Of a stretch of 64,000 nucleotides of DNA, positions 1,599-27,230 are shown in pieces; positions within the stretch are counted from its first letter, which is position 1; the number at the start of each line of letters is the position of its first letter. Location: the IMG/VR virus record IMGVR_UViG_3300042886_000261, positions 1 to 64,000 of that record; one strand, given 5' to 3'. A program made the position numbers and the translations under genes. This DNA comes from a virus. The notes beneath the pieces were generated by a model. The model searched no databases and was not told the origin of the DNA. It saw only the letters and a program-made list of their open reading frames with translations.

Positions 1599-4349
1599 TT
1601 ATTTTTTGTTATCAGATTTTCCTTTAACATCAAATTTATTTTTGTTTTCTCTAGCTATTTGCAATTGTTTATCAGCAATATTTTGTTGAACCATGAGTTT
1701 TTCTCTCTCTAATCCTGCTTTTTGATTATTGCTAGAAGTCCTATTAGATTCTTTTTGTCTCTCTAAACTCATTTGACTAGTAAACTGTTCTGAGTTTTGT
1801 ATTTCTCTTAGAGTATCATTGTAATCAGATTGTTGATTTTGATTAATATCTTGTGTAGCACCAAACCCAGCGGATCTAATTTCAGCAACAAGGATATCTC
1901 TCTGTCTATCTTTTTCTCCTCTAATGTCTTCTGAATCTCTTTTAAGTTTTTCATCTTCCGCTCTTGCTTTTAATGCTTGATCTTGCATGTCTTGTTGATG
2001 TTTCATTTCTGCATCTTTCTGTGCTTTAACTTTTTGCTCAGAATCTTTAAGTACACTATTTAATTCAGATATACTTTCTGACTGCATTAATTTTCCTAAG
2101 TCATATATTGAAGCTCCTGTAGTATTATTAGATATTGCCATGTTTTTCAATTGCTCTAATACTGCTCTATAGTTAGCTTTAGTAGTTGCAAATATATTAA
2201 GATCTCTCATTAATAAATCTGTACCATTAATCTGGAAGTTTACTTTTTCATCTGCAGAAGTCATATATGATAACCTAGCAGAAGGTTTAGTAGATTGATA
2301 AAACTGTGCAAGATCTGTTCTCATCTGATGTACTCTTGGCATTAAGTAATCTGAGTGTTGTATAAAGTACATTTCTGTTTGAGCATAAGATGATCCAACT
2401 GCTTGTTCTACACCTGTTGCAGTTTGTTGAGATAACTGCTGACCCATTCTTTGTGGATTAATACCTATAACTTCATATGCTTGTTGTTTCATATATGTAG
2501 CTAATTGTATTCTTGACATTAACCTATTAGTCTGTTCTAGGTCTAATTTCTGAAAGTGTTGGAAGTTAAGAGCATTCTCTGTATTAGTAATACTGGTATC
2601 TAAAGGAAGCATCTGAAAATTCTTCATTGCTACATAAGCTTTAGCTAAATTGTTTTTACCCCAGTCTTCACCCATAGAGTGTCTTGGTAATGCATTCTGA
2701 TCTAATAAGATAACTGTACCTAACTCATCTACTAAGATATCTGCTATTTGATTATTAACAATGTTATATCCTATCTGGAAAGGTTTCATTAAATCTATTA
2801 ATGCAGTTGACTTAGTATTTCTATCTGAGAATACTGCACCTTCTACTGGTAGTTTACATCCGTATAAACTATTATCACCTTTAAATTGAAATCTAAGTGG
2901 TCCTATATTTTGTTTATCAACACCAATATATATAGGAGTAAATCCACCAGGGTTATTCATACCCCAAAAAGAAGGAATATTTGGTCCAACTTTAATACCA
3001 CCCCATACCTCATTAATCCAAATCCAGTCTATATGCTCACCATATACAATATTGTCTTTAGTTTTATTTTTAAAGAGTCTTGTATCATACACGGGTGAGT
3101 CTGTTACTTTATAGTCTTCAGTAATAATTTCTGTAATTACTTCACCTGAGTCAGTAACTTTAGTTAAGTGACCTACTTTTCTTTGAGATTTCCAATATGC
3201 TGTAGTACAACGTAATAGATATGCAGTACCTTGATCATAATAATCTTCTCCTTCTCTAAGTATGTAATTAACAATATCTCCTCCGTTGAATATACTATTA
3301 GCTGCTGCAGTAGAATATTGTCTGAATCCTAATGAAGGCATATTAGTATTCCACTCATGTGATTTAGTAGCATCATAAAATGATCCGTCATTCTGAGTAC
3401 CACCAATATTATATCCTGCAGATCTGATAGGATAGATAGCTTCTAATGATGCCATCTGATCTTCATTCATCATATATCCATACTTGTCAATAACATCTGC
3501 TACTGTAAGCATGTCAGTTTTACCAACCCAGTTAGATTGTGATATGTATCTTGCATCAGGAGACTTATGATAAAATGTTAATACAGGATTCCATAATTCT
3601 ACATCATAATCATCTTCCATCATACGCATGTGCCAGAACTCTCTATCAGTAATAAGCATATCTCTGAAACCTCTTTCTTCTAACTCATCCATTCTGAATC
3701 TTTCAGTATCAACTTCATGTTGATGAGTAGCCCATTGTTCTACTATAGATCTATAATCTTTTTTAAAGAATTTTTCTATTTCAGGTAGTGTTTTAAGTTT
3801 TTCTGGATTTAATTTTTCTTGTGCTTCTGGAGATTCTGGATTAAGACCTTGTTCAATTAATGCAGATGTTATCTTCATCTGTGCATCTTGCATTAAGGTG
3901 TCTTCTACCATTTGTCTTTTTTGCTCCATCATATCATTATATGATCCTTCATCAACAGCACGGTAAGATAATTTACTTGATCTTTTAGCAAACTCAGCTA
4001 CAAGAACATTAATTACATTGGGTATAATTGGATAAAATTTAAGTTCAAGTGCAGAAGAATCTTCTTTAGTAAGAGTCTCAATTATATCTCTATAATCATT
4101 ATCTTCCTCTACAATGTAGTCAGACTTATCAATAACACCTTTAGCTAACTTATAATTTTTCATTAACCTACGGGCATTTCTCTTAATCTGTTTAAGACCA
4201 TTCCACTCTAACCAGTCAAGATTCCAAGCTGCCCACTTATCATCTTTTTCTGCTTTAGGAATAAACTGTAAAGGTTGAGTTATACTACCTAACCTGTTGT
4301 GTTCTGTCTTTGCTCCTTTTTTTAACTGTAGTGCATTATATACTTGCAT
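1599..4349 (-). CDS. Portal protein
   Basis: A 916-residue protein directly downstream of TerL, with a 6-base gap. It starts MQVYNALQLKKGAKTEHNRL and has the mixed alpha/beta body expected of large portal proteins of this phage group. The C-terminal ~160 residues are a Q/K/E-rich helical segment (AEMKHQQDMQDQALKARAED and onward), resembling the extended barrel or tail region of portals. A portal forms the dodecameric DNA channel at one capsid vertex and docks the terminase. Gene order (TerL, portal, scaffold, capsid) supports the call, as does length. No single diagnostic motif was used. Confidence 0.8.
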   Translation of the reverse strand: MQVYNALQLKKGAKTEHNRLGSITQPLQFIPKAEKDDKWAAWNLDWLEWNGLKQIKRNARRLMKNYKLAKGVIDKSDYIVEEDNDYRDIIETLTKEDSSALELKFYPIIPNVINVLVAEFAKRSSKLSYRAVDEGSYNDMMEQKRQMVEDTLMQDAQMKITSALIEQGLNPESPEAQEKLNPEKLKTLPEIEKFFKKDYRSIVEQWATHQHEVDTERFRMDELEERGFRDMLITDREFWHMRMMEDDYDVELWNPVLTFYHKSPDARYISQSNWVGKTDMLTVADVIDKYGYMMNEDQMASLEAIYPIRSAGYNIGGTQNDGSFYDATKSHEWNTNMPSLGFRQYSTAAANSIFNGGDIVNYILREGEDYYDQGTAYLLRCTTAYWKSQRKVGHLTKVTDSGEVITEIITEDYKVTDSPVYDTRLFKNKTKDNIVYGEHIDWIWINEVWGGIKVGPNIPSFWGMNNPGGFTPIYIGVDKQNIGPLRFQFKGDNSLYGCKLPVEGAVFSDRNTKSTALIDLMKPFQIGYNIVNNQIADILVDELGTVILLDQNALPRHSMGEDWGKNNLAKAYVAMKNFQMLPLDTSITNTENALNFQHFQKLDLEQTNRLMSRIQLATYMKQQAYEVIGINPQRMGQQLSQQTATGVEQAVGSSYAQTEMYFIQHSDYLMPRVHQMRTDLAQFYQSTKPSARLSYMTSADEKVNFQINGTDLLMRDLNIFATTKANYRAVLEQLKNMAISNNTTGASIYDLGKLMQSESISELNSVLKDSEQKVKAQKDAEMKHQQDMQDQALKARAEDEKLKRDSEDIRGEKDRQRDILVAEIRSAGFGATQDINQNQQSDYNDTLREIQNSEQFTSQMSLERQKESNRTSSNNQKAGLEREKLMVQQNIADKQLQIARENKNKFDVKGKSDNKK

Positions 4350-4355
4350 ATTCTT

Positions 4356-6560
4356 TTATTTTAAATTTTTAAATGGTGATCTGTTAAATTTTTGATTTTC
4401 ACCTAATCCACTTCTACCCATATGTCTAAAAGGACTACTCTTTAAGGTATACAAATTTTTTGAATTTTCCAATTTTTTACTTGCCTCATCTCTTACAATT
4501 CTTTTTGTATAACCCATATTAGCTTGTTGGATTTTAAGAAATGAAACTAATGCAGAAAAAGCTACTAACCTATCCACGTTGAGTCCATCTTGATAAGCCT
4601 GCATTTCTTTCATTAACATTATATCCGGTATTCTTTCTACACCATAATGTATCTTTACAGTAGTACCATCATCTTTCTGTATATGATCTATCTCTTCAGT
4701 TAAGAAATCTTGAGTATAACTGATCATATGATTCTTAAATAGTACTCCTGTATTTCTCCATCCGTATTCCTGGAATACATTTGCATTAGAACCTAAATCT
4801 TTTAAGAATACTATTTTGTTTCTTGGTACCAGATATCTTTGTTTCTTTCTTGATATCATGTGGTTTATAAATTGAGATATATTATTCTCTACTATAGTCC
4901 ATGCATTATACCATTCTATTATTAACTCTAGTCTCTCATGTGTTTTATTGATATCATCAAACCTTCCACACCATGCTGCTACAATTTTATCTCTTTCTAT
5001 AAATGTCTCAGCCTCACCATTAGTAACCTTAGTTACTTCAACTGGAGCTTTCATTATATATATGGAACATAGTGAGTCTGAGGTAGTTGTCTTTCCTTCT
5101 GCAACAGGGTCAATACTACCATAGTACATACCAAATGTAGGATCTGGTACTGGTCTTTCCCATACTACTAATGTACCTGTTTTATCTTCTGTCTTCTTAG
5201 ATATAGGGAATTCTGCTATTGGTAATTTATTAGTAGCTTTTACTTTTACTTTACCGGTTTCATCTCTAGATATATCAAGAAACTCTGAAGAGTATTCTTT
5301 TTCTTCTATTCTTTTTATCTGAGCATTTACAAGATGTGGTGGGAATTTAGCCTCTTTTCTAAATGCAAATGCCTCTTCTATATTTCTTGGATGCTGAGAT
5401 ACCTCAAGTTGATAATCTTTAGGTTCTTTATTTTTCTTGATTTCCTCAAAGTATTCATCTAAAGCAATTAATGCTTCTTGGACAAGTGAATTACCATAGT
5501 CATCTATATATGGTGGCATAGACCATTGTTCCGGTATAAACAATCCTGATTCTCCCCATGTATTATCTTTATCAATTAGATTAGTTTTAACTGGGTATAT
5601 ATCATTACTAATTGGATCAAGTATCATTTTCTTTAAAGGACCACATTGATCAAGATCCCCTACTGATCCTGCAGCAATAAATAATCCTGTAGTAATCATA
5701 CCAGACTTAAGTGCTGGCTTGATATATCCAAAAGTTGTATCCATCTTGGGAGCAATTCCTGCTTCCTCATGAAAGAAGAACTTAACTGGACCCCCTACAC
5801 CATTTGTTGGATCTTTCTCAAAAGACATACCTTGCATAGTACCTTTAAGTCCTATTTCAGCTTTTCTATCACCTTTTCTTATTTCAATTTTTTGTTGCCA
5901 CATCATTATTTTATCTGGAGACATAGGTCTATACCATGCAGTATGTTCATTTAAGAATGCTGCATACTCAGATAAAAACTTCCATGTACCTTTCTCATTG
6001 ATGTAATCTTTAAGTGAGGCACCCATTTTTAATGTGACCCCTGCTTCAAACCATAACTGATTAATGAGTTTACCTGCATGAAAGTATGAACTAGCTATCT
6101 GTCTTTTTTTAAGAATAGCCACGTGCATGTAGTTTATCTCTGCAAGTATCTCATATAAAGCCATGTGATATTGTGCATCTCTTATCTTAGCAAATCCAAA
6201 CTTTTGCTCTTCCTTATCAAAGATAGGTAAGAAGTTTAACCACATATAATAATCTCTTGTAAGGAACCAGGTTTTAGGTCCTGATTTAATTATTACACCT
6301 AATCTGCATTTAGCTTTTTGGTCTTCCCAATAGTTAATAAAATCTTTAGATTTAAAGGGAGCTACACAATATACTTTATCTATATTGAATTTTGTTGATT
6401 CAGATATAAATATTTTATTACTAACATCATCAAATTCATATTCACCTGGCTCTTTAAATAATGCAAACACAAACTCACCAAATTCTTTTCTTGTATCAAA
6501 AGATGTAGTAGTCCATGTTCCATTATCCCAGGTGGGGATATCCGTGTACATATTTTCCAT
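4356..6560 (-). CDS. terL: Terminase large subunit
   Basis: DNA-packaging motor with ATPase and nuclease halves. A degenerate Walker A-like segment (LKKRQIASSYFHAGKL) lies near residue 150, and the Walker B segment VKFFFHEEAG near residue 260. The nuclease half starts at GSIDPVAEG near residue 484, whose Asp would bind metal; a further acidic motif is in WTIVENNISQF. About 734 residues, long for TerL but usual in crAss-like phages. I chose the ATG at 6560 because the longer reading would begin at TTG inside the upstream stop. The classical GKT/S in Walker A is replaced, as in related crAss-like terminases. Confidence 0.93.
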   Translation of the reverse strand: MENMYTDIPTWDNGTWTTTSFDTRKEFGEFVFALFKEPGEYEFDDVSNKIFISESTKFNIDKVYCVAPFKSKDFINYWEDQKAKCRLGVIIKSGPKTWFLTRDYYMWLNFLPIFDKEEQKFGFAKIRDAQYHMALYEILAEINYMHVAILKKRQIASSYFHAGKLINQLWFEAGVTLKMGASLKDYINEKGTWKFLSEYAAFLNEHTAWYRPMSPDKIMMWQQKIEIRKGDRKAEIGLKGTMQGMSFEKDPTNGVGGPVKFFFHEEAGIAPKMDTTFGYIKPALKSGMITTGLFIAAGSVGDLDQCGPLKKMILDPISNDIYPVKTNLIDKDNTWGESGLFIPEQWSMPPYIDDYGNSLVQEALIALDEYFEEIKKNKEPKDYQLEVSQHPRNIEEAFAFRKEAKFPPHLVNAQIKRIEEKEYSSEFLDISRDETGKVKVKATNKLPIAEFPISKKTEDKTGTLVVWERPVPDPTFGMYYGSIDPVAEGKTTTSDSLCSIYIMKAPVEVTKVTNGEAETFIERDKIVAAWCGRFDDINKTHERLELIIEWYNAWTIVENNISQFINHMISRKKQRYLVPRNKIVFLKDLGSNANVFQEYGWRNTGVLFKNHMISYTQDFLTEEIDHIQKDDGTTVKIHYGVERIPDIMLMKEMQAYQDGLNVDRLVAFSALVSFLKIQQANMGYTKRIVRDEASKKLENSKNLYTLKSSPFRHMGRSGLGENQKFNRSPFKNLK

Positions 6561-25517: not shown

Positions 25518-25844
25518 ATGGAAACTGTTAAAGACCCAATTGCGGTTTGTACTATTAAAAGTATAGACGCAGAAATCAGTATCAATACCAATGGTAAAAG
25601 ATACAAAAAAGTAACTTTAATCACTGCTTCAGGGAAACCTGCTAGAGGAGTGATTTATGAAGTTGTGTGGGATAAAGTATCTCAGGGAGATGAAGTAAAT
25701 GTGGCGTTATCCTTAATGGATGATAACAAAACACTTATCCCAAGTGTATTAGGATTACCAATGGAATCATTATCATATGATGATTTTGGTATCACTGCAC
25801 CTGCACCTGCTGTTAAAGATGATATGGAAAACCCATTCTCTTAA
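25518..25844 (+). CDS. SSB-like OB-fold protein candidate
   Basis: A 108-residue protein (METVKDPIAVCTIKSIDAEI) with a five-strand-like pattern (YKKVTLITASGKPARGVIYE, GDEVNVALSLMDDNKTLIP) and an acidic, hydrophobic-ended tail (VKDDMENPFS), the hallmark of ssDNA-binding proteins that recruit partners. It is a single-gene unit flanked by terminators. An OB-fold and ssDNA binding are inferred, not demonstrated. Confidence 0.5.
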   Translation: METVKDPIAVCTIKSIDAEISINTNGKRYKKVTLITASGKPARGVIYEVVWDKVSQGDEVNVALSLMDDNKTLIPSVLGLPMESLSYDDFGITAPAPAVKDDMENPFS

Positions 25845-25852
25845 CACGGAAG

Positions 25853-25890
25853 AATAAACCCTTACCTTAATAGGTAGGGGTTTATTATTT
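25853..25890 (+). terminator. Strong intrinsic terminator
   Basis: Long stem: AATAAACCC (25853-25861) / GGGTTTATT (25878-25886), extended inside by TACCT/AGGTA, followed by ATTTTTATT. Ends the SSB-like gene. Confidence 0.75.
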
Positions 25891-26460
25891 TTATTCCCAT
25901 TGTAGTTAAATGTATTACTGTGTTTGATATACTGTGTATGATGCACTATGTATTTTTTCTTGGCTTTGCCAGCTTTATTATTCAGCTTTAAACTGTAGGG
26001 GATAGTAGTGTTGGTAAATTATGTGGTCTATTGATATAAAGATATAATGTCATTTAACTACATGGTCTTATTATATATACTTAGTCAGATGCATTAAGTA
26101 TAAGTTGACAGTAATGTTGTATTTATATTAATCATATTGACAGTCTCACACCGGTACTTGTAGTCAAATTGATTATATTATAGGTGATGTTAGTTATGTT
26201 GTAGGTAATGTTGTAACATGCTGGTAGTTAAATAGTTATGTGGATATAATTTGTGTGAGAATGTGTGAGATAAAGTAGTTGACAGTCAAACACCCACCTA
26301 AACTAATGCTTTAACTCACATCTGTAACTACCTGATTAGGCTATATCTATATTAATATATGGCTAAATCATGAACTTAGTCTACTCACTCACATTACAAT
26401 ACTATATTCTTATCTATTAGTTAGTAGGAGAGTATAATAGCTATTGAATCCGGAATCTTA
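25891..26460 (+). other. Gene-free region with repeats and a long inverted repeat
   Basis: No gene. It contains a perfect 12-bp inverted repeat (TGTAGTTAAATG 25901-25912 / CATTTAACTACA 26051-26062), extended to 15 bp across one bulge by CCA/TGG. It also has three copies of TTGACAGT (26105, 26137, 26279), TCTCACAC (26144-26151) complementary to two GTGTGAGA copies (26253, 26263), and a ~21-base near-repeat TAGGTGATGTTAG / TAGGTAATGTTGT (26181, 26202). It may be a 5' domain of the structured RNA that follows, a promoter region, or an iteron-type origin. Confidence 0.5.
25953..26018 (+). repeat. Leader element copy 2
   Basis: Diverged direct repeat of 25433-25499: T-tract, CTTGGC-ttt-GCCAGCTTT, ATTATTCAGCT, TAAACT, GGGGATA. 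The stem bases differ from copy 1 but still pair. It lies inside the long inverted repeat at 25901/26062. Confidence 0.5.
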
Positions 26461-27230
26461 ATAAATTTAAAATAGTAATGTACCATTCTCACTTCCCAAG
26501 GGTGAGCAGTTGTAATACACATATAGACTCAGTTGAAACCTCCAAAGGCTCCCTTAAAAAGCCCAATAGAATATTTGGTAAATACTGTTTAAAATGGTGT
26601 ATGTAACATGTCTGTGATAGACTCTTTAATTAGAGAACTAAAACATCAGCTTATGTATTACAACTGAGTACAGAGGGATTATTACCGTGATGTCCTGTTT
26701 GGGTTCTTGAATACACGTAAAAACTGAAGAACATCCTATCCAGTAAGTTGCTGGCGTTGGCTCACCATAACAGACAAGTGAGAAATTAAATGTAGGTGAC
26801 AACCATTAACCAAAGAGGATCTTTGGGGTTACGCTGAACAGATTGACAAAGTCTTTAGTATCATAAATCGGGGATGCCCAGTTCAGTATTGATACACTAC
26901 ATTTTAATAACATAGTCCTATGCACCTTAACCAATAAAAGCTAAGGGACTTAATCCGTTAAACAAAGGTGGTTAGCAATAACCAGTATATAAGGAGTGTT
27001 ATTATTATATGATTCAAGACAATCAATCCTGAAGAGGATTTGTCAGGAGAAATTCATAAGGCTGAACAATAGTTCAGTATATAAACTTATGATGTCTAGC
27101 CTGATATAAACAAGCAGAGTACATTGTACTAACTTATCTGTGCTTTTGGAGTTAGCTACCAAGGGTGGGAACGGGGAACAGAGTGTGTAGATATTCCATG
27201 GGTCTACACCTGCTTGTTTATTTTTATTAA
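26461..27230 (+). ncRNA. Large structured non-coding RNA candidate
   Basis: About 770 bases without any credible reading frame but rich in long complementary helices. They include a 15-bp helix with a 2-base bulge (26507-26523 with 26652-26666), a 10-bp helix with one bulge (26788-26798 with 26895-26904), CCAAAGA/TCTTTGG (26810-26826), and CTGAAC/GTTCAG (26834 with 26881, and again as a tetraloop hairpin at 27062-27077 inside CATAAG/CTTATG). There is also TGGTTA-GCAA-TAACCA with a GNRA loop (26969-26984), GTGTAGA/TCTACAC (27185-27209), and a perfect 12-bp closing stem (27106-27117 with 27210-27221) followed by TTTTATT. The GC content is higher than in nearby genes. The architecture resembles giant phage RNAs such as GOLLD or ROOL; membership is not established. 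Confidence 0.65.

Follow-up and report, generated by a model that had tools for sequence, protein, structure and literature searches.

Within a 1.4-kb non-coding stretch between two plus-strand ORFs of a viral contig lies an interval (26461-27230) in which many long helices can be drawn by hand. Does this interval encode a structured RNA, and if so, of what kind? The contig (IMGVR_UViG_3300042886_000261; 106,750 bases) was analysed over a stretch of 64,000 nucleotides, here called the window, and coordinates refer to the window unless another sequence is named. A preliminary description had seen no credible gene in the interval; from the number, length and nesting of its helices it had proposed a large, ornate phage RNA, perhaps GOLLD or ROOL, perhaps a new class. 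The interval does encode a genuine structured non-coding RNA. What proves it is comparison between homologues rather than folding energy: the conclusion was right, and the reasons given for it were insufficient by themselves.

The ORFs confirm that no credible gene is present, and all of the helices named in advance exist: a 15-bp helix with a 2-base bulge, in which CAGTTGTAATACA[CA]TA (26507-26523) pairs with TATGTATTACAACTG (26652-26666); a 10-bp helix, AAATGTAG[G]TG (26788-26798) with CACTACATTT (26895-26904); a perfect 12-bp stem preceding TTTTT (Table 1); a GCAA-capped GNRA hairpin (26969-26984); and CATAAG/CTTATG enclosing CTGAAC/GTTCAG (27055-27091). That these helices exceed chance holds for length and fails for number. 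The longest Watson-Crick helix, at 13 bp, is longer than in any of 60 dinucleotide shuffles, whereas helices of at least 8 bp number five against a shuffled mean of 2.8, a count reached by 5 of the 60 shuffles. Folding energy, also compared with shuffled controls, carries no information here, since coding DNA from this phage scores as low: the interval gives z of -2.1 on the plus strand and -3.2 on the minus strand, and coding stretches, at -2.2 to -4.8, match or exceed it. Indeed, the single-sequence minimum-energy fold is wrong for the conserved module A described below, leaving almost no probability to its stems P1 and P2, and the true structure would have escaped a search by folding energy alone. 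(The energy model prefers a 9-bp pairing of 26486-26494, in the 5′ arm of P2, with 26776-26784, in module C. This pairing looks coincidental, since relatives that share the C hairpin carry different A stems.)

Homologues revealed that structure. A close relative (L003) is 90% identical to the window up to position 26519 and then diverges, keeping a 5′ element and a 24-nt 3′ element. A pattern taken from the 3′ element matched 21 IMG/VR stretches, 20 of which have a common module, and a second pattern, TTCCCAAGGNNNNNCARTTGTA, matched at least 120. This module, A, is a three-way junction formed by three subelements: P1; the P2 hairpin, with its UUCCCAAGG loop; and P3, CAGUUGUAAU/AUUACAACUG, whose arm holds a hypervariable insert, the cassette. 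Among the matches listed, 110 distinct ones with the 3′ arm have unconstrained 5-nt loop flanks that pair completely, and in three further ones the flanks pair at four, three and two positions. About 20 P2 stem combinations occur among the matches listed (for example CTCAC/GTGAG, CCTGA/TCAGG, TCTAC/GTAGA, CTATC/GATAG, CCTGT/ACAGG and TCAGC/GCTGA), and P1 is found as TGCAC/GTGCA, TGTAC/GTACA, TGCAT/ATGCA, TGCGT/ACGCA, TGTAT/ATACA and TGTGT/ACACA.

An alignment of 37 distinct cores, made without the cassette, has canonical pairing in 98.8% of its cells and changes on both sides in 11 of 20 pairs, counts that are inflated by related sequences; the covariation score is 0.447, as against 0.189 in shuffles and no more than 0.126 when partners are slid. 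RNAalifold recovers the fold unaided, and covariance-model matches fall on both halves of the window's own module A (1.1e-06 and 0.063). The P2 loop is invariant within the aligned set, an invariance that, like that of the P3 5′ strand, is partly ascertainment, because both belong to the search pattern TTCCCAAGGNNNNNCARTTGTA. P1, both P2 strands and the P3 3′ strand lie outside it; the last lies inside the earlier 3′-element pattern. G-U pairs outnumber A-C mismatches on the plus strand (36 versus 9; p ~7e-5), and this excess places the functional RNA on that strand. No conserved coding frame runs across the relatives. Helices formed by chance in AT-rich non-coding DNA would suit an interval whose folding energy does not surpass that of the phage's own coding DNA, but covariation and conservation in more than 100 phage contigs refute this for module A, and as an account of the locus its probability is next to nil. 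The helix joining 26507 to 26666 is P3 of module A; the other helices drawn by hand are without homologues.

Table 1. Features of the array and its flanks (window coordinates)
Feature	Position	Strand	Basis or remark
Intrinsic-terminator-like hairpin, ending the upstream gene (25518-25844)	25853..25886	+	15-bp stem and T-tract
Conserved non-coding stretch with three TTGACAGT repeats	25887..26460		Repeats spotted by eye
GAATCCGGAATCTTA motif, promoter-like, immediately 5′ of the array	26446..26460	+	Common to L003; degenerate in L004
Module A, three-way junction with variable cassette	26477..26677	+	More than 100 homologues; covariation
P1 5′ strand, TGTAC	26479..26483	+	Pairs with GTACA, 26668-26672; both-side changes in 3/5 pairs
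P2 hairpin, CTCAC-TTCCCAAGG-GTGAG	26488..26506	+	Both-side changes in 5/5 pairs
P3 5′ strand, CAGTTGTAAT	26507..26516	+	Pairs with 26657-26666; both-side changes in 3/10 pairs
Cassette of module A, hypervariable insert	26517..26656	+	Differs between phages; exchanged
P3 3′ strand, ATTACAACTG	26657..26666	+	Pairs with 26507-26516
P1 3′ strand, GTACA, and conserved GAGGG tail	26668..26677	+	Homologue comparison
Candidate hairpin GTTCTT...AAGAAC, directly 5′ of module C	26703..26732	+	Hairpin with changed stem at the same place in several relatives
Module C: hairpin CCAGTAAGTTGCTGG, then hairpin CTCAC...GTGAG	26736..26782	+	Homologues
Body with other hand-drawn helices	26788..27105	+	One sequence; short weak matches elsewhere only
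Closing domain: 12-bp stem (27106-27117/27210-27221), then T-tract	27106..27225	+	Sequence; likely RNA 3′ end
Small ORF after the array, 46 aa	27266..27406	+	No Pfam family

Module A has company. The second frame, B (TACTCTCATCC ... CAAGG-GUUGCAA-CCUUGUGAGAGUA), likewise holds its own inserts and was found in at least 120 IMG/VR stretches; it shows few compensatory changes, and its support is weaker than that of A because the retrieval pattern was nearly exact. Its hairpin loop is mostly GUUGCAA or AUUGCAA, in which UUGCAA is self-complementary. Other modules that recur beside A and B are C, J, K, L, E and G; each module is closed by its own helices and separated from the next by linkers of mostly 2-8 nt. 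In K, changes are matched in both the outer and the inner stems. From phage to phage, modules vary in number, kind and order, within preferred orders (K-B, B-J-A and C-L-A), and among the matches listed B precedes A in 47 cases and follows it in two. (B and K share, at many loci, the string CUCUCAUCC(N)GCAGG despite different helices, hinting at a shared origin or a binding motif. In L157, L164, L215 and L136 the 3′ end of B is CTTGTGCTTATAG(C/T)A, not CTTGTGAGAGTA, and P1 pairing is lost; these are perhaps recombinants with another module.)

In the window, the array opens with A, followed by C and by about 430 nt that have no informative relatives and end in the 12-bp stem and T-tract. Module C is 86-88% identical in three relatives (L347, L268 and L300), and its core occurs in 20 of 184 regions among the matches listed. 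Pairing probability is about 1 for most of the 12-bp stem, and the 3′ part of the closing domain weakly matches the 3′ end of L003.

The cassettes are the least constant part. Those of module A are mostly ~20 to 250 nt long. Among the matches listed, 244 A and B cassettes group into 156 clusters (110 with a single member), and no cassette is common to A and B; 20 of the 26 pairs with an A cassette in common differ in the stems of their frames; and of 54 locus pairs, 52 have just one of the two cassettes, A or B, in common. L347, for example, has its A cassette in common with L124 and its B cassette in common with L007. Judged by such like cassettes in different frames, the array is a recombining mosaic. 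A large structured phage RNA is upheld, but one fixed ornate fold is not: small independent domains with swappable inserts take its place. A nearly invariant P3 inverted repeat around exchanged inserts, beside a strand switch and the TTGACAGT repeats, might instead belong to an element that works as DNA (a replication origin, a recombination site or a mobile cassette). However, tolerance of G-U pairs is confined to one strand, P1 and P2 change in compensation while loops are conserved, and no integrase or transposase was seen among recurrent neighbours; a DNA-level element is accordingly given a very low probability.

Which phages carry the array, and where? By portal and genome layout we class the phage and its group as crAss-like viruses of bacteria. 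The window's portal matches phrog_6547, and the same portal was found again in 29 of 29 long records tested, which include all of the module-bearing ones among them. The A pattern is present in 28 of 50 long records (one of them, G011, by a weak one-mismatch match), in one to three copies each, multiple copies being clustered; module B occurs at the same locus, so that each genome has a single clustered locus. Identity to the window's portal ranges from 100% down to ~21%, so module A crosses deep divisions of the phage group. In bacterial and archaeal genomes the module A pattern had 39 matches, of which one alone has both stem and flank: L249 (~4488-4585, locus on the minus strand), in a 4.6-kb MAG contig binned as an alphaproteobacterium. 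This sole genuine module A in cellular genomes is probably a misbinned phage fragment; the other matches fail the hairpin or flank test and were rejected.

Gene direction switches ~2 kb upstream of the interval. Beyond 3 kb on the upstream side of the array, ORFs lie nearly all on the opposite strand; downstream ORFs lie nearly all on the array strand. The array sits at the start of the plus-strand block, just downstream of the switch. In crAss-like phages, regulatory and replication genes form the early phase and are transcribed by an injected virion polymerase (reviewed in PMC10136315); replication genes in the plus block suggest that it is the early block. In L004, whose record has a portal 91% identical to the window's, the flanking site is present and an ORF replaces the RNA, by which comparison the array is accessory.

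The terminator-like hairpin closing the upstream gene is kept in L003 and L004, and transcription probably starts anew further right. The ~570 nt that follow (90% identical in L003; in part ~70% identical in L004, which is without the RNA) form a possible promoter, control or origin region. Their terminal GAATCCGGAATCTTA motif is overlapped by a weak sigma-70-like match (26444-26473), and in L004 the degenerate motif precedes the ORF, not an RNA.

A cultured crAss-like relative, Cellulophaga phage phi14:2 (L350; KC821624), has no module A, B, J or K; its plus block starts with a 690-nt non-coding stretch (2904-3590 of phi14:2) and a tmRNA. (This tmRNA, at 4031-4500 of phi14:2, has the ARAGORN tag GSSVQKLAMVA and scores 46 bits with RF00023, whose gathering score is 47; GenBank annotates the region as small hypothetical ORFs.) Two 145-kb Cellulophaga phages, phi4:1 and phi17:2, carry a 109-nt piece of the stretch at ~75% identity in a gap between genes. 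The closing helix GACCCTACTCTTATTAG ... CTAATAAGAAAGAGGG surrounds a changed insert in L350 (3256-3364), in L351 and L352 (~2501-2600), and in L353, L354 and L357; the element is common to phi14:2, phi4:1, phi17:2 and IMG/VR contigs, and the inserts differ. From this recurrence, the frame-plus-cassette design may extend beyond the family of modules A and B, and phi14:2 offers a handle for testing it in the laboratory. DNA searches of cultured phages (INPHARED) with the interval, module A and a K+B+J+A array returned nothing informative, module A yielding two chance-level matches (E ~6; one Escherichia phage).

Is the array a known RNA? By homology it is not GOLLD, ROOL or OLE. Covariance-model searches with Rfam 15 gave no match in the window at gathering score, none in the interval at E up to 10 and, apart from tRNA, none in seven relatives at E up to 1; the same searches returned no group I or II intron and no known ribozyme. 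The alternative suggestion of a new class fits an RNA that falls in no Rfam class, and no report of such RNAs was found in the open-access literature, to which the search was confined. GOLLD and ROOL are large, helix-rich non-coding RNAs found in phages, with variable linkers inside them, and the array resembles them and OLE in size, in richness of helices and in combining poorly conserved linkers with a conserved fold (PMC12286853). It differs in lacking any sequence or covariance-model match to them; in consisting of separable modules whose identity and number change; and in setting, because GOLLD and ROOL are recognized in or near tRNA islands, whereas ARAGORN finds no tRNA or tmRNA in the 64-kb window and most of 60 relatives' loci have no tRNA beside the array. 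These RNAs also form homo-oligomers of RNA only, through kissing loops and A-minor contacts. The modules could likewise build one scaffold or cage through loop-loop contacts: length, many helices, variable linkers like those inside ROOL and GOLLD, and the self-complementary but only suggestive UUGCAA of the B loop favour this, but no Rfam model matches, and a single cage hardly allows modules to vary in number, kind and order. Self-assembly of this type appears improbable.

Other comparisons are looser. RNAs C and D of phage T4 are stable RNAs of the phage tRNA cluster, and like the array they are structured RNAs of unassigned function in an accessory RNA region; the window, however, has no tRNA, and its relatives hold arrays of recurrent modules with exchanged cassettes. 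The exoribonuclease-resistant RNAs (xrRNAs) of RNA viruses are three-way junctions set in tandem in a viral untranslated region, a likeness in repeated architecture, but no Rfam model matches and host and virus are unrelated. Resemblances to integron attC sites and to the hammerhead were dropped, as box or core sequences misfit. Y RNAs, partners of Ro60, are modular structured RNAs too, and phage crAss001 encodes a TROVE protein among its early genes (PMC10136315). A TROVE/Y RNA hypothesis was rejected: no TROVE domain (PF05731) was found in 31 records searched, some of them fragmentary and so liable to miss genes, with a control genome positive, whereas 28 of 50 long records have the module. 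To our knowledge, no RNA family with a frame-plus-cassette array architecture has been described.

What, then, might the array do? Pfam assigned no family to ten flanking ORFs. Among the matches listed, the ORFs after 107 arrays fall into 81 families, 68 of them singletons, so no single gene is controlled; a test for a riboswitch or gene-specific leader found no downstream gene family conserved across these arrays. Nor does any neighbour protein recur as a common partner in more than 23 of 115 loci among the matches listed. This diversity argues against gene-specific control.

The array could act in cis, as the long 5′ UTR of the first early mRNA, controlling elongation by the virion RNA polymerase, mRNA stability or processing. 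It always lies upstream of the plus block and on its strand; injected virion polymerase transcribes crAss-like early genes (PMC10136315); and in 36 of 107 arrays among the matches listed an ORF starts 20-60 nt after module A with no terminator between. On the other hand, the downstream genes have no common family, same-direction genes before the array do without one, L004 has the site and no RNA, and some arrays finish in a stem and T-tract. We rate a cis-acting leader as less likely than not, and as the strongest of the alternatives.

We incline, at a little under even confidence, to an accessory array RNA that is oriented with early-type (replication) genes and that, as a stable molecule, targets the host in trans early in infection. 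Closed domains, cassette exchange, accessory distribution and the phi14:2 tmRNA at the matching place all favour a stable trans-acting RNA. In this reading the RNA is a string of independently closed domains; each main one joins a conserved frame (in A: P1, the UUCCCAAGG-loop hairpin and P3) to a hypervariable cassette in one arm, and both cassettes and domains are swapped between phages by recombination. The invariant frame would be held by a common partner (a protein of the phage or its host, or the ribosome); the cassette would present a changing recognition surface, as in decoys or inhibitors caught in an arms race with the host. Against a trans-acting RNA stand the many leader-like arrays that enter an ORF within 20-60 nt without a terminator, and the fixed B-before-A order, which the model leaves without explanation; a partner, sought as a common neighbour gene or TROVE protein, was absent from the loci and records searched.

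Together, these results define an RNA class that is widespread in a phage group ranking among the most abundant, and that neither Rfam 15 nor the open-access papers searched contain. It shows strong covariation, keeps to a fixed place in the genome and evolves in an unusual way, by exchange of domains and cassettes. RNA biologists gain defined domains to solve and assay. It is possible, with rather more doubt than confidence, that phages of Bacteroidota possess a combinatorial RNA system, in which conserved scaffold domains present interchangeable, fast-turnover cassettes, are arrayed and traded between phages, and engage varying host targets. For phage biologists, the array is a candidate for an early function carried out by RNA in crAss-like phages, a group in which the first steps of host takeover are poorly understood.
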